Shown here in pieces: positions 19,106-63,695 of a DNA stretch of 64,000 nt (position 1 is its first letter; each line of letters starts with the position of its first letter). The notes below the pieces were generated by a model. The model had not been told where the DNA came from. It did no database searches and saw nothing but the letters and a program-made list of their open reading frames with translations. The translations under genes and the position numbers were made by a program. Origin of the DNA: Epinephelus fuscoguttatus (Eukaryota > Chordata > Actinopteri > Perciformes > Serranidae); the NCBI RefSeq assembly GCF_011397635.1, contig NC_064764.1:41654955-41718954 (forward strand), in the 5' to 3' direction.

Positions 19106-20515
19106 AGTACTGCATACTGTATCAATACAGCACTCAGTGATTACTGCAGAATATAGTTTTGTAAGTGGACTGTTGTACTGTGCTGTAACCAAACAATGTT
19201 CTACAGTATGGCACATACATATGAGATTGGGAACTGCATTCCTGCTTTGTCTATACAATATGTAATGTATGTTGCTGTATCTGGATCTTTTGCAGAAATG
19301 AAAGATAACCACAAGCAGGTGGGAGGACACGTCTGTTCACGGCTCAGCAGGAGACTGCCATTGTGAACATAGTTCTGGAGAACAACGCTATCACCCTAAA
19401 ACAAATCCAAAGAAAGATGATTGAAGACCAAGTGATGTTCCAGACCATCAACTCTGTCAGCCTCAGCACACTGGACCGTGTCCTACAGCGCAATGCAGTA
19501 CACATGAAGCAAGTGTATAGGGTGCCTTTTGAAAGGAATTCGGCCAGGGTCAAGGAGCTGCGCCATGACTATGTGCGAGTAAGTCCTATATCCAGCACTG
19601 ACACATTACTGTATTGCACCTGTAATACTGTGTGATGCAGTTACAGTGTTCCTTTACATTGTCTCACACGATCATGTATTGACTGCTCTACGTCCATGTC
19701 TGATACTGTCATGCTGTCTGTGTCAGAGAGTTCTGGAGCTGGATGCAGTCGCCAAGATCCACAAATTCCTCTACATTGACGAGGCAGGGTTCAACCTGGT
19801 GAAAAGAAGGCATTGGGGAAGGAATCTAATCGGCCAGCGTGCCATTGTTGAGGTCCCTGGACAGTGTGGATGTAACATCACCATGTGTGCGGCGATGAAT
19901 CACCATGGTATCCTCCATCGCCATGCCACCTTCAGTCCCTACAATAGTGCACTTTTCCTGGCATTCCTGGATGCGATATTTTTTTTCGTAGGACGGTAGG
20001 GGAAGGTACCGCCTTTTCCGCCTCTGATTGGCTAGAAGGGCTCTCCTCTGATTGGTTATTTGCTGTCAGCTAGTCTGTTTTGATCGTCTTTACCACCAAC
20101 AGAAGTAAACGAAGTCAATCCAACAGTGTGATAAGTGCGAGCCGTCAGATTTATATTAATGGAAAGCACATCGCCGAATTTAAGGTTGACACCTAAAGTG
20201 TATGTCCACATCTTAACATATGTTCTCATAGGCACGAAAAGTATCCAAGGGACGAGCAAACGGTAAACTAAGCTATTTCTTAAGGCACTTTGGCAGCACT
20301 CTCTGGAGGACAGACATGTGACAACACACAACAGTAACACCGAAACAGGTTAGTACAACTTTCAGTTCCATTAGCTGGTTTGGAGACTTGTGGAGTCCAG
20401 CCTTACAGAGAAAAAGTTGCAACACATATCTGTCCTCCAGAGCGTGCTGCCAAAGTTAAGATGTGGACATACACTTTAGGTGTCAACCTTAAATTCGGCG
20501 ATGTGCTTTCCATTA

Positions 20516-39774: not shown

Positions 39775-41055
39775 AGTTTATTTATATAGCACATTTAAAA
39801 ACAACCTCTGTTGACCAAAGTGCTTCACATAACACAGAAATTATCAATCAAAAAACAACAAAGACAAAGCAAAAAACACAGTCATAAATAAGAAGATACA
39901 GTAAATTAGTAAAGGCATATAATATCTTGGTGACATAAAATTGTAGCACAAGCAGCAATTGGACAACCAACAAATAAAACATACAATCGAATAAACACAA
40001 GAGCCTATCTACATGATAACAATTAAAAGACTAAAGAAAAAAGGTGAGTCTTCAGACGTGCTTTGAAGACTTCGATGGAGGGGGAAGTTCTAATATTTAG
40101 TGGCAAACTATTCCACAATTTTGGGCCGACAACTGAAAATGCACGATCACCTTTGCTTTTTAACTTGGTGCATGGAATGAGGAGCAGTGATTGGTCAGCA
40201 AATCTAAGGGGTCTGGAGGTGTGAATAGGGGATGACCATATCAAAAATGTACCCTGGTGATAGTCCATGCAATGCTTTAAAAACAAATAAAAGGATCTTA
40301 AAATCAATTCTGTACTTCACTGGTAACCAGTGAAGAGAGGCCAGTACAGGGGACATATGGTCTCTCTTCCTGGTACCAGTGAAGAGTCTTGCTGCTGCAT
40401 TTTGAAGCAGCTGCAGGCGTGAAAGTGTTGACTGACTGAGTCCAGTACAAAGGGAATTGCAGTAATCGATGCAAGAGGAAATAAATGCGTGGAGTAGGGT
40501 CTCTAAGTCTTTGGCGGACAGTGGTGATTTAACTTTTGCTATTGATCTTAAGTGGTAGAAGGCAGTGCTAACAACTGAATTTATTTGTTTGTCGAATTTT
40601 AAACCAGAATCAAAGATGACACCGAGACTTCTTGCACGGGATTTTACATTTACTGACAAAGGCCCGAGGGCATCAATTTTTTTTGCAGGGCCGAAGATTA
40701 AGATCTCTGTTTTATTTTGGTTCAGCTGGAGAAAGCTTTTTGCCATCCAGGTTTTTAAATCCTCAGTGCAGTTTAAAAGGGATGAAGCACTGCATGGATC
40801 ACAGGGTTTCAGAGGGAGGTAAAGCTGGGTGTCGTCAGCATAGGAGTGATAAGAAATGTTACGTTTTTTTAAAAATAGACTCCAGAGCCAACATGTACAA
40901 TGAAAATAAAATAGGGCCTAATATAGATCCTTGAGGTACTCTGCAGGAGATTGGAGCAGAAGACGACAACACACTATCAATTCTGACCGAGGCTGATCTG
41001 TCCTGAAGGTAGGAGGCAAACCATTGAAGGGCCTGGCCTTGAATGCCAACAAATT
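39775..41055 (-). mobile_element. L2-type LINE, reverse transcriptase half
   Basis: On the minus strand from 41055: [43 protein letters not shown] (catalytic YADD), LKTWMAKSFLQLNQNKTEIL, then thumb region IDYCNSLCTGL, ending GDRAFSVVGPKLWNSLPLNI and LKTHLF. The RT is broken by a few stops and a frameshift near 40.3 kb. The 3' tail (AGCACTTTGGTCAACAGAGG on that strand) lies near 39.8 kb. It is 5'-truncated. Confidence 0.85.
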
Positions 41056-44408: not shown

Positions 44409-45290
44409 CTATTTCATAAGTTTTGATTTCATGACAACAGCTGTTAGAGCTATCGGCCTGTAGTCATTGACGCTTTTGACTGTTGGCTTTTTGGTGACAG
44501 GGAAGATGGTAGCCGACTTCAGACAGGATGGGGTGGTAGCTTTTGTCAGGGACAGGCTGAATATTCTGCTCAGGAACCCTGAGAGCTGGTCATCACAAGC
44601 TTTAAGTACTTTACCGAGTACTCCATCAGGTCCTGCAGCTTGCTTAGTATCCACCATCCTCAGCACCTGTCAGGCATCAGCAGTGGCACTCACAGGTGAG
44701 TTTCCCTTGCAGTTTGTGATCTGGTGTAATCCCTGTCACACATGCCATAGGTTAATGTGTGAGCTGGTCCTCTAGCTTCCTCTTTTAGTCCTTTGCAGCC
44801 TTGACACCTGTCCTCATGTCTGCCCTTGCCATGCTTTACTGGGCTCTCACCTGACCTGGAGGCCAAGTTGTGGTTTCTCAGGAGAGACTGTACTGCACTT
44901 GTCATCCAGGGTTTCTGGTTGTGATGAATCCAGATGCGCTTGTCGACCATGACAGTGTCAATGCAGAACTTGATGTAAGATAAAACAGTCTGTGTGTTTC
45001 TCAAAGTCCTGCTGTTCAAATATGTCCCATGGTGTGTGTGCAAAACAGTCCTGCAGTTGTGAGAGTGCTCCCTCAGGCCAGTGTCTTATATTTTTTGTTT
45101 CTGGTTTGGTTTTCCTTCTGAGGGCAATGCATGCTGGGATGAAGAGCACTGAGAGGTGGTCTTAAGGTGATGGAGGGATACTGCTCTATGTGCATGCTTC
45201 AGATTAACATAGACATGGTCCAGTGTCCTCTGCCTCTGGTTGAACATTGTACAAATATAGGGAGCACAGTCCTGAAACATGCATGATTAA
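44409..45290 (-). mobile_element. Non-LTR retrotransposon (CR1/Rex-like), endonuclease end to RT start
   Basis: From 45290 on the minus strand: RQRTLDHVYVNLKHAHRAV (end of the AP endonuclease), NQKPWMTSAVQSLLRNHN (linker), then KQAAGPDGVLGKVLKACDDQ and SVNDYRPIALTAVVMK (RT N-terminal blocks). Stops and frame breaks separate them. The part 44895-45290 recurs at 59986-60380 as part of a segmental duplication. Clade assignment is from memory of the motif style. Confidence 0.75.
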
Positions 45291-45859
45291 AATCCCAATC
45301 TTCAATTTGAACTCTGTTTGTTCATAATACCCTGGAGCTGGTCGAGAGCTATGCCAGGACATCTACTGGATCTTATAAAAAGTAGGGATACTATTCATTG
45401 GAAATCTATGGCTCACCAAGGGGGACCATTGGTTGTGAAATGGCAGTAGTACTATGCTTCACATGGTGACACCATTGTTGGAATTTCAGCCTTAACATGG
45501 CCTTGACCCAGCAATAGATCACCAATTTAAATATCAAATTGGCTATCGGAAATAATTAAATATGTTAAATAATGTGACATAACTGACATTAAATCCCCTC
45601 GTGGGGCACCATTCACAAAAAGGGAAAATGATAGCCAATTAATGATATCAGTCTCATAGAGTCATAGTAAAGCCTGAAGGATTTTGGAGTTCTTGACTTT
45701 GCAGAGGTTGACTATTCATTCACTCTTGTGCAACATTAAACAGCAGGTATAATTCCATATATATATTTATTCATACAGGAAGCAAAGTAAATGAATCACA
45801 CAAATTCTAACTAACTAACTAACTGACTATATTCATGCAAGTGTGTGTATGTGTGTGTC

Positions 45860-45917
<58 letters not shown>

Positions 45918-45931
45918 ACAGACAGACAGAG

Positions 45932-45992
<61 letters not shown>

Positions 45993-46514
45993 TAGACAGA
46001 CAAAGGTGGGTTCTGAAACAAATAGGCTGCATCAAGCTGTCTACAAAACAAAGACAAAACAGATTATAATGATTAGATACAAGATGGACAAATCAAAGCT
46101 GGCTTCAGATCGGGGGAGGTTTTGTCTGGCCGTGTGGTCAGGACAAAGACAGAGGAAAAGAAGCGGGAACTTTGAATTGCCTCTTGGGGTGTAGCTCTGT
46201 TAAAGGGCATATATATAAATGAGTCTATGTGAATGTGATTTGTGTTGCAAAGGGTTTGGATTAGTGCGAGGATGTTAAGTTGCATGCAAGACTTTGTCTG
46301 TGAAAAACATAAGCAAACTAACATCACATAGCTTTACTAACCAATAGCCTAACTGTAATCAATCACAGCAATGACTCAATAAACAGCATTAAATCACAAA
46401 AGGGCAAAGTTCAACAGTCCGTACAACTGTAATAATGCTGTGCCCAGTTGTTACGTTACCAATCCTTGTATGGGTGGAAGAAAGAGTCACTTTGTGGTGG
46501 GCTGTTTTTGTTGG
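44895..46514. repeat. Segmental duplication, copy X1 left part
   Basis: This stretch (LINE piece, spacer, GT/GACA microsatellite, spacer) is repeated with high similarity at 59986-61554. After the solo LTR at 46515-48017 the match continues from 48018 against 61555 onward into the TAAR genes. The two copies share even single-base details such as TATGCCAGGACATCTACTGG. Outside the LINE and microsatellite it holds no gene. Confidence 0.85.
45840..45990. repeat. Compound microsatellite (GT)n-(GACA)n-(GA)n
   Basis: A GT run to about 45915, followed by GACA and GA runs. The paralogous tract at 60923-61050 has a different unit composition, showing independent change since duplication. Confidence 0.95.
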
Positions 46515-48017
46515 TGTAACCCACATAGAAAATGCGCTTATGGTGGATAAATGTAATAAATATTTATTTCCTACATTCTCCCGTGTCCTTAAACGCACCC
46601 TTGAGTCACGTAGTTACGTGCGCACGCACGCTGAGCACCTTGCGAGCCTGTTAGCCAATCGCGTTCCTGTAGTCCTCTTCAATTGTGTGTCCTGCTCGGT
46701 TGGCAGACAGGCAAGGGGAGACGGGCTGCAGGGACGGCTGCAACAGGTACGCGACTCGTTTACACGCTGTTTCTCACATAATAATATATCGTGTGCACTT
46801 CTAACTCCAGCTATGCGTTGTACACTTTTAGAAGTTTGATACCAACTGCGTGCTGATGCTGGGTACTCGCTGTGTGACTGTCTAGGAGTGGAATTGGTGA
46901 GTCTGCTTGGTCTAGTTTCATTTTGCTACACGCCGTTAGCATTAGCATACTGTTAGCTGCGCCCATATGCCTGTACTTAATGGCGGAGCACTGTTATGCT
47001 AATGTAGCGGTGTTATCGGCTTTTGTAGCCCACTCTGCTTCTTGTTTAAAGCATTTACAAGCTATTTAAGGTTACGGTGACTGAATGGTTACACTGTGTA
47101 TTTTTTTTGGTTTATGCATCGCCAGCCGAAGCACTTTAGAGCCAATGCTTGTTGTATATTGTATGTTTATTATTACTGGTTGAATGTAATGATTTACTGT
47201 TGATATTTAATTGTGTATGCACTGAGAATTGAGAACAAAACAACCAAACTAGCTAGTATTAATGATCTATTGTTAAATAATTTTACTCATGGTTGGTCCT
47301 GTTTAATTAAACACAGGCCAGGTGTGCCCTGCTTGGTGCCCCCACCCGCGAGCTAAGCCCAAGAAGAGGAGCCTCGAACACCATCCTCACACAGCAACAG
47401 CACTAGCTGCTGCAGCCAGTCCACTCTCCTTTTTGTTTTCCCCTCATTCACAATCCGCTTATGAACTCTGTTTTGCGCCCATGGACAATTATAATACCAA
47501 TGAACATTCTGAATGAACTATGGACAATCAATCAATCTACCAATCTCTACTGCGGACTGTGATTTATCATCAGTGAGGTGATTGGGTGGAGTACAGGTAC
47601 TCCAGGTATTTTCCTGGACTAGGACTGGTGCATTTCTTTTGCTGTTGCTATTGTGAAATAGCATATTGTGAAACTGTAAACTGAACTGTTTATTTGTGGT
47701 CAGAACGAATGGTTAAAACAAAGTGCACTTTTTCCCTCTTCAAACTTCTCTAATAATTTCAAATCAAGCTTGAACAAAGTCATATCTGCAGATTGTAAAT
47801 ATTTTGGGACTACTGGTTGAATTCACTTTTTTTTCCCACTGTTAATAATAAAGCACTGGCCACTAAACCGTAAATATTTGTCTGTGTTGTCTTTATACTG
47901 CCACACGCACCTCCCAGAGCCGAACCTTAGCATTTTCTGATCTAGTCCAATTACCACCTTATAAAATTAATAAACTTATACTCTTCTTATTGAGCATTAC
48001 TACATGTACTTGCTACA
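46515..48017. mobile_element. Solo LTR of an LTR retrotransposon
   Basis: 1503 bp bounded by TGTAACCC and TTGCTACA, i.e. TGTA...TACA termini. The flanking 4-bp repeats are TTGG (46511-46514) and TTAG (48018-48021). The paralogous segment has the uninterrupted site TTTTTGTTAGCAGCAGC at about 61551-61566, so the insertion is directly demonstrable. Inside are a CpG-rich promoter-like stretch (46600-46760, with GCCAATCGCG) and AATAAA at about 47848, consistent with U3-R-U5. No internal retroelement genes remain. The superfamily is undetermined; a 4-bp duplication fits Gypsy-type. Confidence 0.75.
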
Positions 48018-49014
48018 TTAGCAGCAGCAAAGAGCTGTGGTTCCAAGTGCAGTCTTTGTTGTGTCCTTGTTCTGGAGGTGCAGATCCGAGGAGGCTGGTT
48101 GCTTGGGGTCCTTGCGGAGTTAGACGTTGGGGTGCTAACTCAACTTGGTTCTCCTTGTGGCTGGAAAGTTAGTTGCAAACCTGGTGTTTGGCACACTAAC
48201 TTATCTGGATTTCAGGTTTTGCTCCTGCTGTGAGGGAGGGAAAGTCATGGTCCAGGAGAAAAAGAACAAAAGTCATTATGGATGTAGATGCAAAGAACAC
48301 CTCCTCTGCTCTTACCAGAGTCACTATTTTGTTCCCTGATGGCACAATATTTTGTATAATCCTGTGAAACATTTTTTTAAAAAACACACAACAAGATTCA
48401 AGTTCCTTTTTGTTGCAAGGTCCTGAGTAATGATGCTCTGATGCCAACAATAACTGCTGCGCTGAAACAGATCTGTATAATAACCAAACATGGTGTAAGC
48501 AAATGCAGTTTTGAAAAGATGACGCATGTTGGTTACTTGTGCTTTGTTTGCTCATGACCTGTCCACTGTGGCAGAAGGACAACTTCAGGTCTTCAGCTCA
48601 TCCATCAAAATCCTATAATCCACTGTATCATATATGGCATTAGACTGTAAACAAAATTATCTTTAGTGTCACTGTTGATCGTCATACTGTTAAGTTATTG
48701 TCTTTTTATTAACAAGGGTTAGTTGGTAGCATAACCTACAATTTTGAAGTGCAGAGAGGATTACAAGGAAAAGGAGAAAGAAAAAAGGAAGAAGCGAAAC
48801 TGTTGATTGAAGATGGGAAGGGAAGGAAAGGATGAAGATTGAGTATGAGGCAGATGAGCATGGAAACCATAGTACCTCTGTCTCTGTGGAGATAAACAGC
48901 AACAGAGGTGAGGAGGAAGGAGGGGTGAGCAGAATGGATAGAGATAAATCTTTTGTATGACAGAAAGCTTTGGTCAGACAGCTGCCAGAGTTCAGCAGCT
49001 TCTCCTCTCTGGTG
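48018..49014 (+). other. Upstream flank of TAAR copy A
   Basis: Conserved in order at 61555-62555 (upstream of the second intact TAAR) and from 50241 for the second half (upstream of the first intact TAAR). No exon was recognised. The long minus-strand frames here recur only because the segment is duplicated. Confidence 0.6.
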
Positions 49015-49620
49015 ATGGAGACCTTGGAGGGAATTGAACTCTGCTTTCCACAACTCCTCAACACCTCCTGCTTGAAGCCAACACGTCCTCACTTTGAATC
49101 ATTGCTGATTTACATTGCGTTGTCCCCCATCTCTCTGCTCACTGCAGCTCTTAACCTGCTGGTCATCATCTCTATCTCCCACTTCAAGTACCTCAATATT
49201 TCAATAATCATGAAACTGTTAGATAGTATTAATGAGTATGACTTGATCTCAAAACTGCGAGGAAAAGTCTTTCTGCTTTATTTGAAATGATAATTGACTT
49301 TATAAAAAATGATAAATATATTGCTGGTCTTCTTCTGCAGGCAGCTTCACACCCCCACCAACCTCCTCCTCCTCTCTCTGGCTGTTTCAGACTTCTCTGT
49401 GGGCCTCCTCATGTTCTTTCAAATTGTACTCATAGATGGTTGCTGGATCTTTGGTGACATCATGTGTGCTGTGTATCAGTATCTTGCATTCATTATTACC
49501 TCTAGCTCTGTAACAACCATGATGCTCATATCAGCCGATCGATATGTGGCTATTTGTTATCCTCTGCATTACTCCACTAAAGTGCCATGCCATGCATATC
49601 ACATGAAAGCGCAGGACTAG
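49015..49620 (+). pseudogene. TAAR copy A, truncated after TM3
   Basis: Exon 1 (49015-49187) and the start of exon 2 (from 49341) match the intact receptor at 50810-51949 at essentially every base. At 49583, just after the codons for STKV following the DRY motif, homology stops and the segment found also at 53351-54005 begins, giving a short foreign tail and a stop at 49618-49620. The product would be about 150 residues with TM1-TM3 only, so it cannot be a working receptor. The upstream sequence is intact, so it may still be transcribed. Confidence 0.85.
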
Positions 49621-50241
49621 ACCTTTCCAGTGAAACCACGCACATCATTGTGCTGTCATCCCATCATGCTATAAATCCAGATTAATTGTCTACAAAATAA
49701 AAACCTGACAAATTTCTTTACAGTCCATCTTGTTGTCAGTCACTTCATATAGTGAGGAATATCGTATCTTACCGCGTCTTAGGCTTGCATGTGTTTCTCC
49801 CTGTCTATCCACATTTGTAGTCGGGCTTTCAAGATGCAAATATCTCCATATTGTCCAGTTGACACTCCATCAAACTTTGTAAGACAAGACCAGCCACTTC
49901 ACCTTTGCGCACCCAGACAACTGTAGCCTAATCATGCATGCGCAACCATATACACTGAGGGGGACATGTCCCCCCCAGTGCCCAAAATGCCCCCCCAATA
50001 TATAACTGAAACTGAAAAACAACAACAAACTTTGTTTACTGCAAACAAAGTGGCAAATATTATCTTGGAGGACATCATTGCACTTGGTTGACTGTTTTTC
50101 TATGATCTTAGATGTAAATATTGCATGTTTCCTTCAGATAAAACACATTTTTGACTTGTGAATGAGTCAATGGAATTTCTTGAAATAATGAAAAAATACT
50201 GGCAATCATGTCCACCTGGCACAAACCACATGTTTTGGACA
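49587..50241. repeat. Duplicated segment S, copy 1
   Basis: 655 bp nearly identical to 53351-54005 (one difference noted: ACTTGTGAATG versus ACTCGTGAATG). It carries GACATGTCCCCCCCAGTGC, a fish-repeat phrase, and no gene. It joins truncated TAAR A directly to the flank of TAAR B. Confidence 0.9.
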
Positions 50242-50809
50242 ACAATAACTGCTGCGCTGAAACAGATCTGTATAATAACCAAACATGGTGTAAGCAAATG
50301 CAGTTTTGAAAAGATGACGCATGTTGGTTACTTGTGCTTTGTTTGCTCATGACCTTTCCACTGTGGCAGAAGGACAACTTCAGGTCTTCAGCTCATCCAT
50401 CAAAATCCTATAATCCACTGTATCATATATGGCATTAGACTGTAAACAAAATTATCTTTAGTGTCACTGTTGATCGTCATACTGTTAAGTTATTGTCTTT
50501 TTATTAACAAGGGTTAGTTGGTAGCATAACCTACAATTTTGAAGTGCAGAGAGGATTACAAGGAAAAGGAGAAAGAAAAAAGGAAGAAGCGAAACTGTTG
50601 ATTGAAGATGGGAAGGGAAGGAAAGGATGAAGATTGAGTATGAGGCAGATGAGCATGGAAACCATAGTACCTCTGTCTCTGTGGAGATAAACAGCAACAG
50701 AGGTGAGGAGGAAGGAGGGGTGAGCAGAATGGATAGAGATAAATCTTTTGTATGACAGAAAGCTTTGGTCAGACAGCTGCCAGAGTTCAGCAGCTTCTCC
50801 TCTCTGGTG

Positions 50810-51949
50810 ATGGAGACCTTGGAGGGAATTGAACTCTGCTTTCCACAACTCCTCAACACCTCCTGCTTGAAGCCAACACGTCCTCACTTTGAATCATTGC
50901 TGATTTACATTGCGTTGTCCCCCATCTCTCTGCTCACTGCAGCTCTTAACCTGCTGGTCATCATCTCTATCTCCCACTTCAAGTACCTCAATATTTCAAT
51001 AATCATGAAACTGTTAGATAGTATTAATGAGTATGACTTGATCTCAAAACTGCGAGGAAAAGTCTTTCTGCTTTATTTGAAATGATAATTGACTTTATAA
51101 AAAATGATAAATATATTGCTGGTCTTCTTCTGCAGGCAGCTTCACACCCCCACCAACCTCCTCCTCCTCTCTCTGGCTGTTTCAGACTTCTCTGTGGGCC
51201 TCCTCATGTTCTTTCAAATTGTACTCATAGATGGTTGCTGGATCTTTGGTGACATCATGTGTGCTGTGTATCAGTATCTTGCATTCATTATTACCTCTAG
51301 CTCTGTAACAACCATGATGCTCATATCAGCCGATCGATATGTGGCTATTTGTTATCCTCTGCATTACTCCACTAAAGTCACACATAAAAGAGTTCAAGTC
51401 TGTGTTTGTCTGTGTTGGATAGGCTCTGTCATATTTCAAAGTTTCATTCTGCAGGACATCCTGAAACAACCAGGCAGGTATAACTCCTGCTTTGGAGAGT
51501 GCATATTTGCTCTAAGCTCCTCTGCTGGACTTGTAGATGCTATTTTTACATTCATTGTTCCCCTTTCTGTTATTGTTGTTCTGTACATGAGAATATTTCT
51601 TGTAGCTGTGTCTCAGGCTCGTGCCATGCGATCTCGTATTGCGATTGTCACACTCCAGAAATCAGTGAAAGTAACTGCAAAAAAATCTGAGCTGAAAGCA
51701 GCCAGGACTCTTGGTGTTGTTGTAGTTGTGTTTCTAATATGTCTCTGCCCAGCTTACTGTTTCAGTTTATCAAATGAAGATTACAATAATTCTTCATCTT
51801 CTGCCTTTGTAATCTGGTTGTACTATTTTAACTCCTGTCTAAATCCTGTGATCTATGCCTTTTTTTACCGCTGGTTTAGAAAATCAATTAAGCTCATTGC
51901 TACACTCAAGATACTACAGCCTGGCTCCCGTGAGGCAAACATGCTGTAG
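50810..51949 (+). CDS. Trace amine-associated receptor, intact, two exons (copy B)
   Basis: Exons 50810-50982 and 51136-51949 (phase-2 intron of 153 bp after TM1) join to 328 codons plus stop. This is a class A GPCR, predicted to detect amines at olfactory cilia through a Golf-type G protein. Visible: N-terminal Cys10 and Cys19, Cys100 (3.25) and ECL2 Cys176/Cys180, DRY at 124-126, Pro200 (5.50), Leu-Cys-Pro in TM6 (Leu261 replaces Trp6.48), and NSCLNPVIYAFFYRWF (290-305), which fits the TAAR fingerprint NSxxNPxx(Y/H)xxx(Y/F)xWF. Position 3.32 is Ala107 instead of the amine-binding Asp, while Asp192 sits at 5.42. Trp285 (7.40) and Tyr288 (7.43) are kept. The first ATG in the exon was chosen. 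It resembles TAAR13c-like teleost genes; the exact paralogue is not assignable. Confidence 0.88.
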
Positions 51950-52612
51950 GGAGACTCTGCATTGTGGCTGAAATGAAACCCTTAGCAAACAGAAAAATGT
52001 ACTTGGTCATGGTGATGAGTAATTAAATACAGCAGATTATGTTCTGGATGAGTGTCTTTACACTGTACTTGTTAAAACATAATAATCTCTAATAACTTTA
52101 AATGCAAAACTGAAGCTAGTTTATTTTTTTAATATATTCTGGACAAAGCATCGTCTTTAGAATTGTGCACTCTGCAAATATCAGTGGGATGCTAGTGAGT
52201 TAAACAAGGTTGGCAGTGGTTACCCATTAATATTTCATCATTCCATGAAACTTGGAGCTGTAGTGTTACGGTTTGTCCCTGTGATTTGTATATTTCATTG
52301 TGTATTACTTTGATGCTTAGCAGTAATAGTTAGCAGTTATGCATCATTGAATACAAAAATCCACCTCCCACACTCACACAGGCCCCCTTGGTGATAGTAC
52401 TTGGAGGCCAATATTATTGTTCGCTGAGGCTGTGGCACACTCATTTTTTGGGAAGATATCAGAATCTTGTCACACTAGCTTTTAGCTTTTAGACAAGGGG
52501 GCTGAAAAATACTTGTTGGTATCATGTGTTTAAAAGTGATAAAATAGCAATGAAAAATAATTTGTGATTATTATTTTTTTGTAAACAATATGATTTATTC
52601 TACATTAAATCA
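51950..52612 (+). other. 3' flank of TAAR copy B
   Basis: Shares collinear sequence with 63696-64000 (ATGTTCTGGATGAGTGTCTT, GACAAAGCATCGTCTTTAGA). The AATAAA present in the paralogue at 63823 reads CTAATAACTT here, so the shared signal is lost. No gene was recognised. Confidence 0.5.
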
Positions 52613-53335
52613 CCTCATGGGACACCAATTACAAAACAAAACAAAACAGACACAAAAGGGGTAACAGCTACTGGGAAGCCTCTCTCACTGAGGTAGGAGG
52701 CGAACCACTTCAAGGCACTCCCTGAGACACCCACCAACTTACTGAGCCTGTCGAGCATGATATGGTGGTCTACAGTATCGAATGCTGCACTCAGGTCTAA
52801 TAACACCAGTAAGCAGCATTTGCCTGCATGTGCAGCCATCATGATGTCATTAGACACTCTGAGGAGGGCTGTTTCTGTGGAGTGCTGCTGCCGAAAACCA
52901 CACTGGAATTTATCTAACAGGCCTTGGGTGGTCAAGAAGGATATAATTTGGTTTGCTCCTACTTTCGCAAGGATTTTAGATATAAACAGCAGTTTGGACA
53001 TGGGTCTATAATTTTTGGGTGTGGAGGGGTCTAAGCTTGGCTTTTTGAGAAGCGGCTGCAGAGTAGTCTGTTTGAAAAATGATGGAGCACAGCCTGATTT
53101 CAGGGAGGTGTTAATAATGGAGACCAAGCTAGGGCCCACAGAGCTAAAAACCTCTTTCAGCAAGGATGTTGGTAAGATGTCTAGTGGACTGGAGGAGGAT
53201 TTCATGGTGCTCACTAGCTCAGTCAGATCCTGCAGAGTGATAGAGGAGAAACTGCTGAGAGAAGCCAGCCTTGATGGACAGGTTGGAGGGGAGGCAGCAG
53301 AGGGGGTGATACTAGCCCCGACACCAACAACATTA
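52613..53335 (-). mobile_element. L2-type LINE fragment, RT N-terminal half
   Basis: A 199-codon open frame on the minus strand starts STMKSSSSPLDILPTSLLKE and runs through LKKPSLDPSTPKNYRPMSKL, FRQQHSTETALLRVSND, LVLLDLSAAFDTVDHHIML and SGSALKWFASYLSERGF. It ends just before the YADD region at GVP. It is intact over this length but lacks the catalytic half, so it is a truncated copy. 53161-53335 recurs at 55812-55981. Confidence 0.85.
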
Positions 53336-53350
53336 GAGGCTCACACAGAA

Positions 53351-54005
53351 ATGCCATGCATATCACATGAAAGCGCAGGACTAGACCTTTCCAGTGAAAC
53401 CACGCACATCATTGTGCTGTCATCCCATCATGCTATAAATCCAGATTAATTGTCTACAAAATAAAAACCTGACAAATTTCTTTACAGTCCATCTTGTTGT
53501 CAGTCACTTCATATAGTGAGGAATATCGTATCTTACCGCGTCTTAGGCTTGCATGTGTTTCTCCCTGTCTATCCACATTTGTAGTCGGGCTTTCAAGATG
53601 CAAATATCTCCATATTGTCCAGTTGACACTCCATCAAACTTTGTAAGACAAGACCAGCCACTTCACCTTTGCGCACCCAGACAACTGTAGCCTAATCATG
53701 CATGCGCAACCATATACACTGAGGGGGACATGTCCCCCCCAGTGCCCAAAATGCCCCCCCAATATATAACTGAAACTGAAAAACAACAACAAACTTTGTT
53801 TACTGCAAACAAAGTGGCAAATATTATCTTGGAGGACATCATTGCACTTGGTTGACTGTTTTTCTATGATCTTAGATGTAAATATTGCATGTTTCCTTCA
53901 GATAAAACACATTTTTGACTCGTGAATGAGTCAATGGAATTTCTTGAAATAATGAAAAAATACTGGCAATCATGTCCACCTGGCACAAACCACATGTTTT
54001 GGACA
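53351..54005. repeat. Duplicated segment S, copy 2
   Basis: Matches 49587-50241. Its left edge abuts the LINE and its right edge marks the end of a ~3.77-kb tandem duplication unit (50241-54005). Confidence 0.9.
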
Positions 54006-55079
54006 GCTGTGAAGTGACAGAATGTCCCACCATCATGGTTCTTACATTGCCAGATTCCAGAGAGTCTCCCCTCTTCATATATGGCAGAATATGTCAACTT
54101 CCAACTTGCTATGGTGAGATATATGTAAAAATGTAAGAATTTAGTCACACAGATTTGTTTTTTTCATTGATATAAATATTAATATAAAATACAGGCACAT
54201 AGAAGGACATGAAATGATGGCAAATTTGGATAGCCCACATTGTCCTGAAAAAACAAACAAACCAAGATATAGCATGTGTATGTAGCCTTTATAATGACTG
54301 TGATATGAGCTTAAAAGTAAAGGCAGTAAAAATACCCCAAAAACGCCTAGGGCCCATAGGGTTACTTCTTTGCGTTCTAAATATAGTAATTTGCAGATTT
54401 TGATAATAGATGAAATATCCATGGTTAATCAGCCTCACTGGATCAGTTTTAAGATGAAAAACATACAGAAAACATAATGACTTAAAGTTGACTACAGGGG
54501 CGTCGTTTCAGCAAAAGCTAAGGTATGGCAATATGACATGACGTCACAGAGCTACTGATGATGGAGTTTCAAAAATATGAACTTATAAAAAAAACTTCAC
54601 TTTGATGTTTGACCTGTCAGAAGTACATACTATGCTATTGAAAACTGTTTCAGAGGACATGAAGCTGTTTCTCACATTCATAATACCTCATGTCTGCATG
54701 TAATGCACGACTTGGTGAGAGCAGTGAAAACATCGGACCTATTTCGGCACATATTTCAGCACCGCAGACAGCGAGTGGACGTTTAATTATCATTAGTCAT
54801 GTGTTTAACTTCACAGAAAATAAAGAAAATAAATTAATTACAAGCTCATTTCTAGAAGATAACCAAAGGGTCAGGTGTATGAAACACAGTAAAACAAAGG
54901 CCAATTTGGTACAAGACTATATAGGCCAATTTGTTGGAGTGTCTTCAGAGACCGAAAATACAAGCTTAACATGCCGACATGAATAAAAAAACCCCACATA
55001 CAATCAGACGGGCTTCAAGACATCATTTAGACAAGCTGTCTACAGCAGCAGAGCAAAATGCTTTTACAACACACAGATA
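54006..55079. other. Intergenic, no gene seen
   Basis: Single-copy within the window. The 98-codon frame at 54690-54986 has no recognisable features. Confidence 0.4.
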
Positions 55080-55220
55080 CCGTATTTTTCCAAATAGTAG
55101 CCCGGGCGTTTATTTCACAACATCGATTTTGACCCCAGGCATTTAAAAGAACCAGGCGGCTATTTGCTCAAGGCTTTTATTTTTTTTGCACCGACCTGCA
55201 CGAGGCTGTTATTTGGTTAC
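55080..55220. repeat. Fish repeat fragment (ACCGTATTTTTCCAAATAGTAGCCC type)
   Basis: CCGTATTTTTCCAAATAGTA, GCCCGGGCGTTTATTTC and GGCTATTTGCTCAAGGCTTT are typical of a common non-autonomous teleost element. Only one end was recognised. Confidence 0.45.
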
Positions 55221-55646
55221 AGTTCCTGTCCGGTATGTTTTTTAGTGCAAAAATACTGTATAATGTAGGAGTGAGTTCGTGTACAAAAATCTCTGAACAT
55301 TTAGAGTGGGTCATTTTTTTCATGTACACGGGTTTCACCGCTGGGTGGTGCTTTGCATTATACCAGTAAAGCCCCACTTATCCGAATACCAACCGAACAG
55401 GCTATTTAACCAATGGTTACAGGCCGCCACACCGAAATATCGCCCTTCCGATGGTCCACCATCCCGAATTTTGATCCCTGAGTCCTGACAGTGAGCTATG
55501 GCGAGCCTGTAGAAGCTGTATTTAGCATGCATGTCAGCGATTTTCACTGGGGACGTACGTGAGTAATTCAGGCTGACATTACCTGTTTTTCAGCAAACTC
55601 TTCTGGTAATTTTGTTCAAAGACATGGCATATAGGTCCACAGTAAC

Positions 55647-55683
<37 letters not shown>

Positions 55684-55811
55684 TATTATTGGGTCTTGTA
55701 AGAGTGGGCTACAATGAGTACCGGGCCATCAAATCACAGCATCCGCAGTGAGAGGTACACGGAATTGTGTGTGCTTTTACGCACGCGGGTCAAGGCGATC
55801 ACTTATCAGCA
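55221..55811. other. Intergenic with (ATT)n microsatellite
   Basis: An ATT/TTA run lies at 55646-55690. Nothing else was recognised before the LINE border at about 55812. Confidence 0.5.
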
Positions 55812-58440
55812 AGGACATTGGTAAGATGTCTAGTGGACTGGAGGAGGATTTCATGGTGCTCACTAGCTCAGTCAGATCCTGCAGAGTGATAGAGGAGAAA
55901 CTGCTGAGAGAAGCCAGCCTTGATGGACAGGTTGGAGGAGAGGCAGCAGAGGGGGTGATACTAGCCCTGACACCAACAACGTTATTCACAAAAAAAGACA
56001 GAAAATTATTACAATCCTGATTGGAAGAAAAAGGGACTGAGGGGAGTGGAGGACTGATAATGTCATTAATAGTCTCGAATAAGACTGGGGTTTCGCCTGC
56101 TGGAAGTGATCAGGTTAGCAAAATAAGCAGCCCTTGCGTTCTTAATCAGCGCATTGAGCTCTGTTAACAGATCTTTGAGATAGATCCAGTGGACCTGGAG
56201 TTTGGTGGATTTCAAAAGCTGTTCTATTTTTTGACATTTGCGTTTGTGGCTGCGGATCTGGTTGTTTACCCAAGGAGAGGAGTTAACATGTCTGATGGTA
56301 CGGGTAACCGTGGGGGCTATTTCATCGAAAATTGTGGAGCAGTGGGAGTTGAAAGCATGAACGAGAGAATCTATGTCCACATGAGGTGACTGAGCTTGGC
56401 CTGCATGGCAGTCAAAAGCAACAGAAAATTTTTCTGCTGAGAGACTGTCAAGGATGCGTGAACTTTTTGCTTGCTTCCCTGGTGAAACGTCAGCATCGAG
56501 TGATAGATTGAATAGAACACTTTTGTGGTCAGTTACAGGCAAATCCTCAGTACCATGACATTCAAACCAAGAGTGAAAACTAAATCCAGAGTGTTACCCT
56601 TAATGTTCGTGGGACCAGATATATGTTGGTTCAGGTTAAATGACTCTGTGATATTTAGAAAGTTTGCAGCAAAGCTGTTAGTGTTATCATTTACATGTAT
56701 GTTAAAGTCGCCAGCCAGGAGGATTCTTTCATAATGAATGATAGATGATAAAAACTCACTAAAATCAGACAGAAAAGCACCATTTATGCCTGGGGGGCGA
56801 AAAATGACACAACAATAAAATGGGTTGGAGCGACCAATTTTGGTAATCAAAACTTCAAACATTGAAAAAGATCCAGTGCTCAACTTGCGGGTAGTAAAAC
56901 AGTCTTTGTGGACTATGGCTAGCCCCCCACCATGGCCTGAGGCCCGCGGGGCACAGGAGAAAGAGCAGTTTGGAGGACAAAGTTCAATCATTGAAACAGA
57001 TTCCTGCTTTAGTGGCAGTGGCAGTTGGTGCCTTTAGGGGGAGTGGTTACGGGAGGCAATACTCACAGAGCTCAAAGAGGGCATCGTAGAAAAGGAAGAA
57101 GAAGAAAGCACTGAGGAGGGGGTGTCGCATGTAAACAGTCACGCGTGTGTGTGTGCCATGGCCTATACAGTGTACTGTATGTTGGCTGTGAGCATGCGGC
57201 TACCTAATTTGCTCGGGTGTAGTCCGTCCTGCCGACAGAAAGAGGGGCGATTCCAAAAGTTAAAGTTGTCGACAAAATTAAAACCAATGGTACTGCGGGA
57301 GTTTGTTGAACCGCTGTGCACCGAGTCCGAGTGTGGGAAGAGGCCCGCAAATAAAGACTGACTTCCCGCAGTCTTTCAGAGTGGTGAACAGACTGTTAAA
57401 GTCCTTCTACAGCAGTTCAGACCGACACCAGACAATATCATTCGTACCGAGGTGCAAAATTATGCATTTGATGGAGTCTTTGAGACAGTGGCTCCTTGAA
57501 AACAGTAAGTGGTGGCGTTAAAAAAGCGGATATTTCTCATTATGGAGTCCCCCACTATGGCAGTAGTTGGAGGGAACAATGGACGAGGGGGGGGGGGGCG
57601 AGCCCCGTTGCCGGGGTGCCGGTGAAGAGTGTGGTGGGGACAGAACTGTGGCTGCGGGCTCACATGTCCCCTCACGGCAGGGAAGTCTGCTGGAGCGACT
57701 CGCTCTGAGGGCAGCCTCTTTCATGATCTCCGCCAGGAGGAGGAGGTTGAGAACCTGACCAAGAGTCACAGTGCAGGTCCACTAGCTCCCTGGGCCCCTG
57801 ACAGCGAGACATTGACGGGGTTAGCAGGAGAAGAGAAGACAGTTTGGGAATTCCTCGACGCTCAGGATGTTAAATCTGTTTTCCAGCTGGAGCTCACAAG
57901 TTGGGGAAGGTAGCGGAGTGGATTTCCCTCGCTTTTTTCCATTTACCATGGCTCTTGGCTGGGAGTGGAGCTGTTTGCTCTAAACCTCGGGTTTGGGCTG
58001 CAGGTGAATGTCGCCTCAGCCCTCCTAGTTGCCCATTTCGCCATGGCCCTCAGCAACAGCCGCGGGTCCTCAGCAGAGAGATGTGGAGCTGGAACTGAGG
58101 AGGCCGGCCTGGATGTAACGTTAGCTGTGGTGGTGTCGTCATCGGTGCGGAGCTGAGTAGCCCGGACGGTCTGCTCAGCTGGGGCCAAGCCGGTGGGGTG
58201 AGTGTCTGTTGAAACCGAGGAGCCGGCATCAGACACTGGGGCGGTGGAGTCCAGATCCGCAGGGTTTCCAGCAGGGCCGGCGCCAATGGAAACCACAGAG
58301 TCTAGGAGAGCTTCTTCACCCCTGATCCAGTACAGGTTGGATATACGTCGCTCCAGCTCAGCGATTTTCTGGGATTTGTGGAGGCAGCTGTCAAAGTCAT
58401 GTGGAGAGGTGAGTGGACCCATGGGGGCATGTTTGTTGCC
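55812..58440 (-). mobile_element. L2-type LINE, 5' half with ORF1 esterase and endonuclease
   Basis: Minus strand from 58440: ORF1 start MGPLTSPHDFDSCLHKSQKI with a short coiled-coil-like KIAELERRISNLYWIRGEE. Next comes an SGNH-hydrolase-type block (IVGDSIMRNIRFFN at about 57530-57560; the HVGTND region near 57430; the DGLHPS region near 57230), with frameshifts. ORF2 starts near 57000 with the AP endonuclease: GGGLAIVHKD, ERILLAGDFNIHVND, LDLVFTLG, then VTDHKSVLFNL. The linker AAYFANLITSSRRNP precedes the RT. The element stops at 55812, so the RT core and 3' end are missing. Confidence 0.85.
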
Positions 58441-59400
58441 TAGGAAACAAAAAACGACTACGGCATTTGATTGTGTGTATCATTTTCTTAAGTCAATTAG
58501 AGGTACCCTGTCTTTCTGGCAGGGTGCACAGAGGGACCTGTTGGCTTGTGTGTGTAAGGTAGGTGTCCCTACCTGGTCCTGTTCATTTTCTTCCTCTTAA
58601 ATACGTTAGAAAATTCTTCTCCATAGTATTTTAAAACAGGATGGTAGAACACCAGTGGTTAAAGACTTAGATTGGGCAGACAGGTGTGGCCTGCAGCGTC
58701 ACAATCCTGTCACTGTGGTGAGAGTGTTTGATTCATTGGCAATGGCTTTTGAAGGAAGTACCAATGTCTCCACTGCATCGAAATAGTAAAATAAAATACT
58801 ACTTTCACCAAGTGGAATTTCAGCTACACAGTTCCCCTCACGTCCATTACTTGTTTTGGATCAAGAATGCCCCACTTTCTGATAAAAACATAGATTAAGA
58901 GGTCATTCAATTTACTGATAAATATGTAACGTGAATTATCATCAGATGATGACACATTATTGGACATTGTCACACCTGTGCAGCAGCACTGAAAGCAACA
59001 TTCAAAACAAATAAAAAGAAAAAAAAGGATTATCGTTTTATAAGAATTGTCATGTGAGGTTTAGTGATGGATGAAGACAATGAAGTCTGTTGTCAATTTA
59101 AGCAGGCGGAATTTAGAAGCTGAAGCAGGAATGGAAAGACAAGAAATAGATAGTGGAAGAACATGGGGAAAATATTCCAGATTTAGCAGTAAATGGCTGA
59201 CAAGTTGCACATTTTGAAAAGAAAAATAACATCATGTGTAGAAGTGATGGTTTGGCTTTAGTCAGATCTCTGAATGAGACACATCTGTCTATTTTTTTAA
59301 TCAGATTTGACAATGGTGCCTAGACAAGATAACAGGGAAAAACCCAGATCCCGGACATATATTTATTACAGGTGGTGCAGGGACAGATGAACGCTGAGGA
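58441..59400. other. Intergenic, no gene seen
   Basis: Single-copy spacer between the LINE 5' end and TAAR copy C. The upstream flank shared by the other TAAR copies is absent here and homology starts only at about 59400. Confidence 0.45.
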
Positions 59401-59563
59401 AGATGAATGCAGAAACCATAGTACCTCGATCTCTGTGGAGATAAACAGCAACAGAGGTGAGAAGGAAGGAGGGGTAAGCAGAGAGGATAGAGATAAATCT
59501 TTTGTATGACAGAAAGCTTTGGTCAGACAGCTGCCAGAGTTCAGCAGCTTCTCCTCTCTGGTG

Positions 59564-59983
59564 ATGGAGACCTTGGAGGGAATTGAACTCTGCTTTCCAC
59601 AACTCCTCAACACCTCCTGCAGGAAGCCAACACGTCCTCACTTTGAATCATTGCTGATTTACATTGCGCTGTCCCCCATCTCTCTGCTCACTGCAGCTCT
59701 TAACCTGCTGGTCATCATCTCTATCTCCCACTTCAAGTACCTCAATATTTCAATAATCATGAAACTGTTAGATAGTATTAATGAGTATGACTTGATCTCA
59801 AAACTGCGAGGAAAAGTCTTTCTGCTTTATTTGAAATGATAATTGACTTTATAAAAAATGATAAATATATTGCTGGTCTTCCTCTGCAGGCAGCTTCACA
59901 CCCCCCACCAACCTCCTCCTCCTCTCTCTGGCTGTTTCAGACTTCTTTGTGGGCCTCCTCATGTTCTTTCAAATTGTGCTCAT
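59564..59983 (+). pseudogene. TAAR copy C, frameshifted and truncated
   Basis: Exon 1 (59564-59736) is open and carries CRKPTRPHF like copy D. Exon 2 starts at 59890, but a run of six C at 59901-59906 (five in the other copies) shifts the frame. Homology ends at 59983 in the TM2-ECL1 region (GTGCTCAT), where LINE sequence homologous to 44895 onward begins. It lacks TM3-TM7 and cannot encode a receptor. Its sequence details (Arg after NTSC, Phe in SDFFVG) group it with copy D. Confidence 0.88.
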
Positions 59984-59985
59984 TG

Positions 59986-60380
59986 ACACTTGTCATGCAG
60001 GGTTTCTGGTTGTGATAAATCCGGATGTGCTTGTCGACCATGACAGTGTCAATGCAGAACTTGATGTAAGATAAAACAGTCTGTGTGTTTCTCAAAGTCC
60101 TGCTGTTCAAATATGTCCCATGGTGTGTGTGCGCAAAACAGTCCTGCAGTTGTGAGAGTGCTCCCTCAGGCCAGTGTCTTATATTTTTTGTTTCTGGTTT
60201 GGTTTTCCTTCTGAGGGCAATGCATGCTGGGATGAAGAGCACTGAGAGGTGGTCTTAAGGTGATGGAGGGGTACTGCTCTATGTGCATGCTTCAGATTAA
60301 CATAGACATGGTCCAGTGTCCTCTGCCTCTGGTTGAACATTGTACAAATATAGGGAGCACAGTCCTGAGACATGCATGAT
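59986..60380 (-). mobile_element. Non-LTR retrotransposon fragment, duplicate of 44895-45290
   Basis: Same endonuclease-to-linker region as at 44895-45290 (RQRTLDHVYVNLKHAHRAV, FCIDTVMVDKHIRIYHNQKP), with a few substitutions. It is cut on its 3' side by the junction with TAAR copy C. Confidence 0.8.
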
Positions 60381-60919
60381 TAAAATCCCCATCTTCAATT
60401 TGAACTCTGTTTGTTCATAATACCCTGGAGCTGGTCGAGAGCTATGCCAGGACATCTACTGGATCTTATAAAAAGTAGGAATACTATTCATTGGAAATCT
60501 ATGGCTCACCAAGGGGGACCATTGGTTGTGAAATGGCAGTAGTACTATGCTTCACATGGTGACACCATTGTTGGAATTTCAGCCTTAACATGGCCTTGAC
60601 CCAGCAATAGATCACCAATTTAAATATCAAATTGGCTATCGGAAATAGTTAAATAATGTGACATAACTGACATTAAATCCCCTCATGGGGCACCATTCAC
60701 AAAAAGGAAAAATGATAGCCAATTAATGATATCAGTCTCATAGAGTCATAGTAAAGCCTGAAGGATTTTGGAGTTCTTGACGTTGCAGAGGTTGACTATT
60801 CATTCACTCTTGTGCAACATTAAACAGCAGGTATGATTCCAAAAATATATTTATTCAAACAGGAAGCAAAGTAAATGAATCACACAAATTCTAACTAACT
60901 AACTAACTGACTATATTCA

Positions 60920-60922
<3 letters not shown>

Positions 60923-60965
<43 letters not shown>

Positions 60966-60980
60966 CTTGTGTGTGTGTGT

Positions 60981-61050
<70 letters not shown>
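60923..61050. repeat. Compound microsatellite (GT)n-(GACA)n-(GA)n
   Basis: GT run with a GCGCGCGC interruption at about 60957-60965, then GA, a longer GACA block and GA. It is the counterpart of 45840-45990. Confidence 0.95.
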
Positions 61051-61052
<2 letters not shown>

Positions 61053-62555
61053 AAGGTGGGTTTGTGAAACAAAGGGCTGCTTGGTCTACAAAACAAAGAC
61101 AAAACAGATTATAATGATTAGATACAAGATGGACAAATCAAAGCTGGCTTCAGATCGGGGGAGGTCTTGTCTGGCCGTGTGGTCAGGACAAAGACAGAGG
61201 AAAGGAAGCGGGAACTTTGAATTGCCTCTCGGGGTGTAGCTCTGTTAAAGGGCATATATAAAAATGAGTCTATGTGAATGTGACTTGTGTTGCAAAGGGT
61301 TTGGATTAGTGCTGAGGATGTTAAGTTGCATGCAAGACTTTGTCTGTGAAAAACATAAGCAAACTAACATCACATAGCTTTACTAACCAATAGCCTAACT
61401 GTAATCAATCACAACAATGACTCAATAAACAGCATTAAATCACAAAAGGGCAAAGTTCAACAGTCCGTACAACTGTAATAATGCTGTGCCCAGTTGTTAC
61501 GTTACCAATCCTTGAATGGGTGGAAGAAAGAGTCACTTTGTGGTGGGCTGTTTTTGTTAGCAGCAGCAAAGAGCTGTGGTTCCAAGTGCAGTCTTTGTTG
61601 TGTCCTTGTTCTGGAGGTGCAGATCCGAGGAGGCTGGTTGCTTGGGGTCCTTGCGGAGTTAGACGTTGGGGTGCTAACTCAACTTGGTTCTCCTTGTGGC
61701 TGGAAAGTTAGTTGCAAACCTGGTGTTTGGCACACTAACTTATCTGGATTTCAGGTTTTGCTCCTGCTGTGAGGGAGGGAAAGTCATGGTCCAGGAGAAA
61801 AAGAACAAAAGTCATTATGGATGTAGATGCAAAGAACACCTCCTCTGCTCTTACCAGAGTCACTATTTTGTTCCCTGATGGCACAATATTTTGTATAATC
61901 CTGTAAAACAATTTTTTAAAAAACATACAACAAGATTCAAGTTCCTTTTTGTTGCAAGGTCCTGAGTAATGATGCTCTGATGCCAACAATAACTGCTGCG
62001 CTGAAACAGATCTGTAAAATAACCAAACATGGTGTAAGCAAATGCAGTTTTGAAAAGATGATGCATGTTGGTTACTTGTGCTTTGTTTGCTCATGACCTG
62101 TCCACTGTGGCAGAAGGACAACTTCAGGTCTTCAGCTCATCCATCAAAATCCTATAATCCACTGTATCATATATGGCATTAGACTGTAAACAAAATTATC
62201 TTTAATGTCACTGTTGATCGTCATACTGTTAAGTTATTGTCTTTTCAGTAACGAGGGTTAGTTGGTAGCATAACCTACGATTTTGAAGTGCAGAGAGGAT
62301 TACAAGGAAAAGGAGAAAGAAAAAAGGAAGAAGCGAAACTGTTGATTGAAGATGGGAAGGGAAGGAAAGGATGAAGATTGAGTATGAGGCAGATGAGCAT
62401 GGAAACCATAGTACCTCAGTCTCTATGGAGAGATAAACAACAACAGAGGTGAGGAGGAAGGAGGGGTGAGCAGAATGGATAGAGATAAATCTTTTGTATG
62501 ACAGAAAGCTTTGGTCAGACAGCTGCCAGAGTTCAGCAGCTTCTCCTCTCTGGTG

Positions 62556-63695
62556 ATGGAGACCTTGGAGGGAATTGAACTCTGCTTTCCACAACTCCTC
62601 AACACCTCCTGCAGGAAGCCAACACGTCCTCACTTTGAATCATTGCTGATTTACATTGTGCTGTTCCCCATCTCTCTGCTCACTGCAGCTCTTAACCTGT
62701 TGGTCATCATCTCTATCTCCCACTTCAAGTACCTCAATATTTCAATAATCATGAAACTGTTAGATAGTATTAATGAGTATGACTTGATCTCAAAACTGCG
62801 AGGAAAAGTCTTTCTGCTTTATTTGAAATGATAATTGACTTTATAAAAAATGATAAATATATTGCTGGTCTTCCTCTGCAGGCAGCTTCACACCCCCACC
62901 AACCTCCTCCTCCTCTCTCTGGCTGTTTCAGACTTCTTTGTGGGCCTCCTCATGTTCTTTCAAATTGTGCTCATAGATGGTTGCTGGATCTTTGGTGACA
63001 TCATGTGTGCTGTGTATCAGTATCTTGCATTCATTATTACCTCTAGCTCTGTAACAACCATGATGCTCATATCAGCCGATCGATATGTGGCTATTTGTTA
63101 TCCTCTGCAGTACTCCACTAAAGTCACACATAAAAGTGTTCAAGTCTGTGTTTGTCTGTGTTGGATAGGCTCTGTCATATTTCAAAGTTTCATTCTGCAG
63201 GACATCCTGAAACAACCAGGCAGGTATAACTCCTGCATTGGAGAGTGCATATTTGCTCTAAGCTCCTCTGCTGGACTTGCAGATGCTATTTTTACATTCA
63301 TTGTTCCCCTTTCTGTTATTGTTGTCCTGTACATGAGAGTATTTCTTGTAGCTGTGTCTCAGGCTCGTGCCATGCGATCTCGTATTGCAATTGTCACACT
63401 CCAGAAATCAGTGAGAGTAACTGCAAAAAAATCTGAGCTGAAAGCAGCCAGGACTCTTGGTGTTGTTGTAGTTGTGTTTCTAATATGTCTCTGCCCAGCT
63501 TACATCACCAGTTTTTTGAGCGAAGATAACATTGGTTCTTCATCTGGTGCCTTTATAACTTGTTTGTACTATTTTAACTCCTGTCTAAATCCTGTGATCT
63601 ATGCCTTTTTTTACCCCTGGTTTAGAAAATCAATTAAGCTCATTGCTACACTCAAGATACTACAACCTGGCTCCCGTGAGGCAAACATACTGTAG
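62556..63695 (+). CDS. Trace amine-associated receptor, intact, two exons (copy D)
   Basis: Exons 62556-62728 and 62882-63695 join to 328 codons plus stop, with the same phase-2 intron after TM1 as copy B. Shared features: Cys3.25 at 100, Ala at 107 (3.32), DRY 124-126, Asp192 (5.42), Pro200, and NSCLNPVIYAFFYPWF (290-305), still within the TAAR fingerprint. Differences from copy B are few (residues 20, 35, 37, 77, 134, 143, 177, 191, 211, 237, 303, 327) except for residues 266-285, where 12 of 20 differ, including Trp285 (7.40) to Cys. The predicted role is an olfactory amine receptor, possibly with a ligand range different from copy B. The paralogue number cannot be given from sequence alone. 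Confidence 0.88.

Follow-up and report, generated by a model that had tools for sequence, protein, structure and literature searches.

The window considered here, a stretch of 64,000 nucleotides of Epinephelus fuscoguttatus DNA (contig NC_064764.1, positions 41,654,955 to 41,718,954 of the forward strand), contains four copies of a gene encoding a trace amine-associated receptor (TAAR), all on the plus strand, as found by tblastn of the two exon proteins of one copy (G2) against the whole 64 kb. Two of them, G2 and G4, are intact, and two, G1 and G3, are broken. The span 50810-63695 extends from the start codon of G2 to the stop codon of G4. When rebuilt by GT-AG splicing, the coding sequences (CDS) of G2 (50810-50982 joined to 51136-51949) and G4 (62556-62728 joined to 62882-63695) each comprise 987 nucleotides (nt) including the stop codon and encode 328 amino acids. 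The two intact genes stem from a recent duplication; each is a two-exon TAAR gene that retains its coding capacity and splice sites. An earlier note on this DNA, which had singled out the two intact receptors for the move of the amine-binding aspartate from transmembrane helix (TM) 3 to TM5, mentioned neither the two-exon structure nor the broken copies at 49015-49620 and 59564-59993. A search of Rfam returned nothing above the gathering thresholds. The four copies are made up as follows.

50810..50982 (+): G2 exon 1, encoding the N-terminus and TM1, with the ATG start
50983..51135 (+): G2 intron, 153 bp, GT..AG, phase 2 in the Lys codon of His-Phe-Lys, intracellular loop 1
51136..51949 (+): G2 exon 2, from TM2 to the C-terminus, including the stop; Pfam 7tm_1 at 8.5e-45 for the exon 2 frame
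62556..62728 (+): G4 exon 1
62729..62881 (+): G4 intron, 153 bp, GT..AG, identical to the G2 intron at 152/153 positions
62882..63695 (+): G4 exon 2, including the stop; Pfam 7tm_1 at 1.5e-44 for the exon 2 frame
49015..49620 (+): G1, broken; exon 1 and intron intact, exon 2 stopping after the DRY region and entering sequence common with 53351-54005, with an early stop
59564..59993 (+): G3, broken; exon 1 intact, reading frame of exon 2 disrupted close to its beginning, similarity ending after TM2

With G2 as the query, the best match in the PDB was TAAR13a at E 2e-62, a value at which chance resemblance is not an issue. Among the best 60 of 782 matches, the top 15 were TAARs (E 2e-62 to 5e-40), and of the other receptors listed HRH2 came highest (1.3e-35). 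The TAAR signature of TM7, NSxxNPxx[YH]xxxYxWF, which is described as weak or missing in some teleost TAARs (PMC4786312), occurs once in G2 and once in G4, in both cases at residue 290. In a 12-row tree with three outgroups, nine TAARs including G2 and G4 split from HTR4, HRH2 and ADRB2 with support of 100/100, so that the position outside the TAARs, which the earlier note had named as the outcome that would tell against it, is not observed. This tree supersedes an earlier one of 10 rows with one outgroup, in which the forks inside the TAARs were unsettled. Judged from their sequences, G2 and G4 are TAARs, as that note had it.

Residues of the amine pocket

Ballesteros-Weinstein numbers were anchored on N1.50, D2.50, R3.50, W4.50, P5.50, P6.50 and P7.50. 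In both G2 and G4, position 3.32 is Ala at residue 107 when counted from R3.50 (residue 125), position 5.42 is Asp at residue 192 when counted from P5.50 (residue 200, with Y5.58 at 208), and position 6.48 is Leu at residue 261 when counted from P6.50 (residue 263). The codons lie at the following coordinates, those for 3.32 and 5.42 being obtained by arithmetic (for Ala3.32 of G2, from the exon bounds).

51281..51283 (+): G2 codon 107, Ala3.32
51536..51538 (+): G2 codon 192, Asp5.42
51743..51745 (+): G2 codon 261, Leu6.48
63027..63029 (+): G4 codon 107, Ala3.32
63282..63284 (+): G4 codon 192, Asp5.42
63489..63491 (+): G4 codon 261, Leu6.48

A MAFFT alignment of 12 sequences, namely G2, G4 and ten receptors from the PDB (TAAR13a, c, d and e, TAAR1 (8wc3), TAAR9, TAAR7f, HRH2, HTR4 and ADRB2), agrees with these counts, and the pairing of Ala3.32 with Asp5.42 reported in the earlier note is borne out in both receptors. 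Ala107 stands beneath Asp in all ten comparators and Leu261 beneath Trp, again in 10/10, in agreement with the statement of the same note that TM6 lacks Trp6.48; at 5.42, Asp is found in five of the ten (TAAR13a, c, d, e and HRH2). C3.25 at residue 100 and R3.50 at residue 125 fix TM3 at its two ends, and the stretch between them is ungapped in the alignment with eight of the ten comparators. With no gap there, 3.32 cannot be reassigned to an acidic residue, and the shift of register that the note had considered as an objection to its own reading does not occur. Overall, the loss of Asp3.32 and gain of Asp5.42 in a TAAR are supported by the sequence.

The departure from the classical amine site extends beyond the three positions first noted. 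The comparators have an aromatic residue at 6.51 and Trp at 7.40 in 10/10 cases, and Asp at 6.58 in 8/10, whereas position 6.51 is Ala in both G2 and G4, G2 carries Asn6.58 and Trp7.40, and G4 carries Ser6.58 and Cys7.40. Both have a Glu at 6.59 (residue 272). In an alignment with eight comparators, the outer half of TM2 (residues 82-84) is two residues shorter in G2 and G4 than in all eight, and the TM2 Pro that these present within MPF, MPC or LPF is missing. The combination of Asp3.32 and Trp6.48 that characterizes a classical aminergic receptor is replaced by Ala3.32 and Leu6.48, and the pair of aspartates at 3.32 and 5.42 of a TAAR13-kind diamine site is incomplete owing to Ala3.32. The changes at 3.32, 6.48 and 6.51 are in line with a pocket that would have been rebuilt around TM5.

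The top-scoring solved sequences for G2 are TAAR13a, c, d and e (PDB chains 9m3s, 9m2s, 9m40 and 9m0x), which we take to be from zebrafish. They are 36.6 to 38.9% identical to it, TAAR9 being in the same range (37.3%). They share with G2 and G4 Asp5.42 and the Cys at both N-terminal and both extracellular loop (ECL) 2 positions, but have Asp3.32, Trp6.48, Phe6.51 and Asp6.58 where G2 and G4 have Ala, Leu, Ala and Asn or Ser, and a TM2 longer by two residues. The histamine H2 receptor (HRH2) also shares Asp5.42, in a similar TM5 stretch (GLVDGLVTF against GLVDAIFTF); it differs from G2 and G4 in retaining Asp3.32 and Trp6.48, and in the tree it groups with the non-TAAR receptors.

Probable class III assignment and putative ligand

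The residue pattern and the loop-1 intron, rather than the tree, point to G2 and G4 belonging to the class III kind of teleost TAARs. In zebrafish, Asp3.32 is reported as missing in 85 of the 87 class III TAARs, and Asp5.42 as retained in 84 of the 85 zebrafish TAARs that lack Asp3.32 (PMC4695389); G2 and G4 likewise lack the former (Ala107) and possess the latter (Asp192). As for gene structure, two exons are found in 80% of the complete TAARs of cichlids; apart from two cases, the intron interrupts loop 1 around codon 55, and of 95 junctions 75 are Phe-Arg and 13 Phe-Lys; all spliced genes are placed in subfamilies A1-A4 and A7, all of class III, and spliced class III genes occur in cichlid, stickleback, medaka and fugu, i.e. 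in neoteleosts (PMC4415300). The single intron of G2 and G4 lies in loop 1, within codon 58, at a Phe-Lys junction, and they share with these spliced subfamilies the two coding exons, the location of the intron and the aromatic-basic junction. By contrast, TAAR genes of zebrafish (PMC4415300) and salmon (PMC4065256) are described as single-exon. TAARs of fish are found in tandem arrays with frequent copy-number variation (PMC6895882, PMC4256280). The published accounts of how class III arose conflict, one deriving it from a TAAR13 duplicate (PMC8032801), the other from clade I via receptors with both aspartates (PMC4695389).

Among titles and the opening parts of abstracts, none was found that concerned loss of Trp6.48 or gene conversion in fish TAARs, although Hussain 2009 may describe these features; that study is credited by other papers with the definition of the class III TAARs. 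A pattern scan matched 2 stretches among viral contigs and 20 among bacterial and archaeal genome contigs, none of which encoded a relative, but fish DNA is not expected there and the result has no bearing on rarity.

The closest functional parallels are the zebrafish class III receptors TAAR16c, TAAR16e and TAAR16f, which, like G2 and G4, lack Asp3.32 and have Asp5.42, with an expected amine contact via TM5, the likeness being one of residue pattern, and the zebrafish genes having one exon instead of two (PMC4695389, PMC4415300). All three are reported to detect monoamines, and the responses of TAAR16c and TAAR16f to be lost once Asp5.42 is neutralized (PMC4695389). On this analogy, with Asp3.32 gone, the protonated amine of the ligand would pair with Asp5.42 (residue 192) of TM5 in a salt bridge, a monoamine would thereby sit reversed relative to its orientation in classical aminergic receptors, and the receptor would then signal like other TAARs. 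A flipped amine is the best reading of the pocket pattern. For this pair, the ligand class, its orientation, expression and coupling are inferred. Very probably, the pair arose by recent duplication and represents two-exon, presumably olfactory TAARs of the class III kind that recognize monoamines in reversed orientation through a salt bridge to Asp5.42.

Several observations weigh against this reading. The trees contained no class III sequences; in the 12-row tree G2 and G4 sit on a long branch (1.63) within the TAARs, they are weakly separated from TAAR1 (82/83), and a topology in which they are held with TAAR13 is neither rejected nor supported (p value of the approximately unbiased test, p-AU, 0.341). 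The intron is in phase 2 by GT-AG splicing, as opposed to the phase 0 that PMC4415300 states, by its own phase convention, for all spliced cichlid genes; on account of this mismatch the pair is filed under class III without a subfamily. With regard to the pocket, positions 3.32 and 6.48 contact agonists in all four structures compared in PMC11364543; 3.36, 3.37, 5.42 and 6.51 always do so as well, and 7.39 often does. L6.48 and A6.51 therefore alter two agonist-contacting positions, which makes the ligand class drawn by analogy less sure. Finally, an AlphaFold2 model of G2 exon 2, with G4 as the sole other row of its alignment, was unusable (mean predicted local distance difference test score, pLDDT, 38.8; predicted template modelling score, pTM, 0.28).

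The earlier note had offered the flipped amine and a preference for polyamine-like ligands as alternatives. The former is in agreement with the zebrafish class III mutagenesis, while the latter is not supported, the three deorphaned receptors with Asp5.42 only being detectors of monoamines (PMC4695389). In zebrafish TAARs di-cation recognition is reported to have required both Asp3.32 and Asp5.42, as in the diamine-recognizing TAAR13s and in TAAR14d, and the same pattern is described in further receptors (PMC4695389, PMC8890504). Since a TAAR13-kind preference for diamines or polyamines needs Asp3.32, it is not supported for receptors with Ala at this position. G2 and G4 might still be diamine or polyamine receptors if a further acidic residue within the pocket or over it, e.g. 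Glu6.59, present in both, joined Asp5.42 in holding a second amine; in this respect, members of the wider family such as TAAR9 and TARLL3h are described as binding diamines or polyamines without Asp5.42, but these exceptions retain Asp3.32 (PMC8890504), and we regard such a function as improbable. It is also unlikely, if slightly less so, that G2 and G4 no longer detect amines at all, the classical site being dismantled (A3.32, L6.48, A6.51 and, in G4, C7.40) and Asp5.42 being put to another use. The disappearance of Trp6.48 and of the aromatic residue at 6.51 from both copies, and of Trp7.40 from G4, when all three are present in 10/10 comparators, would fit such a loss, as would the shortened outer TM2 without its Pro; on the other hand, Asp5.42 is retained in both copies, and class III receptors without Asp3.32 were once thought to be non-amine receptors until three of them proved to detect amines (PMC4695389).

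A quite different possibility is that the two genes are recent duplicates drifting towards pseudogenes and are functionless. Half of the copies, G1 and G3, are broken, and the overall nonsynonymous divergence between G2 and G4 (dN 0.040) is close to the synonymous one (dS 0.044), so that purifying selection between them is not demonstrated. However, the reading frames of both are open throughout, the GT-AG splice sites are intact in each, and only 19/927 nt differ outside the patch described below, too few to judge constraint; a functionless pair appears very improbable, and monoamine receptors anchored on Asp5.42 remain the preferred interpretation.

The divergence patch and the history of the window

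The CDS of G2 and G4 differ at 39/987 nt, corresponding to 24 amino acids, but 20 of the 39 differences are packed in 60 nt (CDS 796-855, codons 266-285), encoding the tip of TM6, ECL3 and the top of TM7. By arithmetic, the patch is placed as follows.

51758..51817 (+): G2 side of the patch, 20/60 nt differing from G4
63504..63563 (+): G4 side of the patch, including the change of Trp7.40 to Cys

Divergence is 33% inside the patch and 2% outside it, where 908/927 nt (98%) are identical. The maximum in any 99-nt window is 20 differences, matched in 0/5000 random placements. The bounds of the patch and of the rate tests, the latter carried out on codons 251-290 and thus wider than the 60 nt, were picked after viewing the data, and the p-values are lenient. 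These codons contain 16 nonsynonymous changes against 4 synonymous ones (dN 0.195, dS 0.166, Fisher p 1.0); dN is not above dS, and positive selection as the cause of the patch is not demonstrated. Synonymous changes amount to 4 in ~27 sites in codons 251-290 and 6 in ~210 in the rest (p 0.018, counts rounded to whole sites), and, synonymous change being raised as well, conversion fits better than point mutation under selection. A pair of frameshifts is rejected, as the best alignment of a 90-nt stretch is gapless and the other two frames have stops in both copies.

The patch suggests either conversion from a diverged paralog, which would lie outside the window, or fast divergence at the rim of the pocket. 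Within the window no donor came to light, the only long matches of either version of the patch being G2 and G4 themselves. Against a single clean tract, the 3′ flank past the stop codon is also diverged (19/86 aligned bases in the bin from 51940 and 6/100 in the next), as compared with 0 to 5 differences per 100 in the other 100-base bins outside the patch when the two copies are aligned at the genomic level; this divergence may partly reflect gap placement. The segment 51940-52139 of G2 differs in this from the 5′ flank and the intron.

Positions 6.58 and 7.40 lie within the patch. In TAAR13c, replacement of Asp279 (6.58) is reported to raise sensitivity, and replacement of Trp296, assigned here to 7.40 by hand count from the printed alignment numbering, to shift the cadaverine EC50 (half-maximal effective concentration) from 15 to 28-55 uM, one value having a large error (PMC4914996). 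We tentatively consider, as a possibility that is doubtful rather than likely, a natural module swap, in which conversion from a diverged paralog would have reset the entrance and gate of the pocket (6.58, 7.35, 7.39 and 7.40) with Asp5.42 fixed and the classical cage already gone.

As to the duplications themselves, 48445-49583 agrees with 50240-51378 at all but 1 of 1139 positions, as does 49587-50241 with 53351-54005 at all but 1 of 655. The simplest reading of these matches is that ~50240-54005 was duplicated in tandem very recently and that the left copy suffered an internal deletion, which would have broken G1 in the middle of exon 2, although the 99.9% identical G1/G2 duplication may be an assembly artefact. 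A larger duplication relates 44896-46512 and 48018-49583 to 59987-61558 and 61557-63124, the two pieces being 94.6 and 98.4% identical; a further stretch of 1.5 kb (46513-48017) is confined to the left copy.

Elsewhere in the window there are fragments resembling non-LTR (long terminal repeat) retrotransposons, with Pfam RVT_1 or Exo_endo_phos, all on the minus strand (52615-53340, 40204-40917, 28167-28664 and 56533-57033; those at 40204 and 28167 fall below the Pfam curated cut-off), and a fragment of a DDE_3 transposase at 19583-19999 (Pfam 3.5e-8). Open frames at 8106-10731 and 31688-32011 bear a resemblance, to judge by eye, to exons of a CD28/CTLA4-like receptor with membrane segments, but Pfam returned no match of this kind.

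The loss of Asp3.32 together with the gain of Asp5.42 is a known and well-described feature of a large group of TAARs specific to fish; in this respect G2 and G4 are ordinary for a fish, and the pair alone adds one more species to a documented pattern. Nevertheless, a nearly identical pair with its differences packed in the rim of the pocket could act as a clean natural experiment showing how receptors with amine binding through TM5 are tuned to their ligands, and, if the module swap is true, G2 and G4 would provide a ready test of how the specificity of class III TAARs is retuned around a fixed TM5 anchor.

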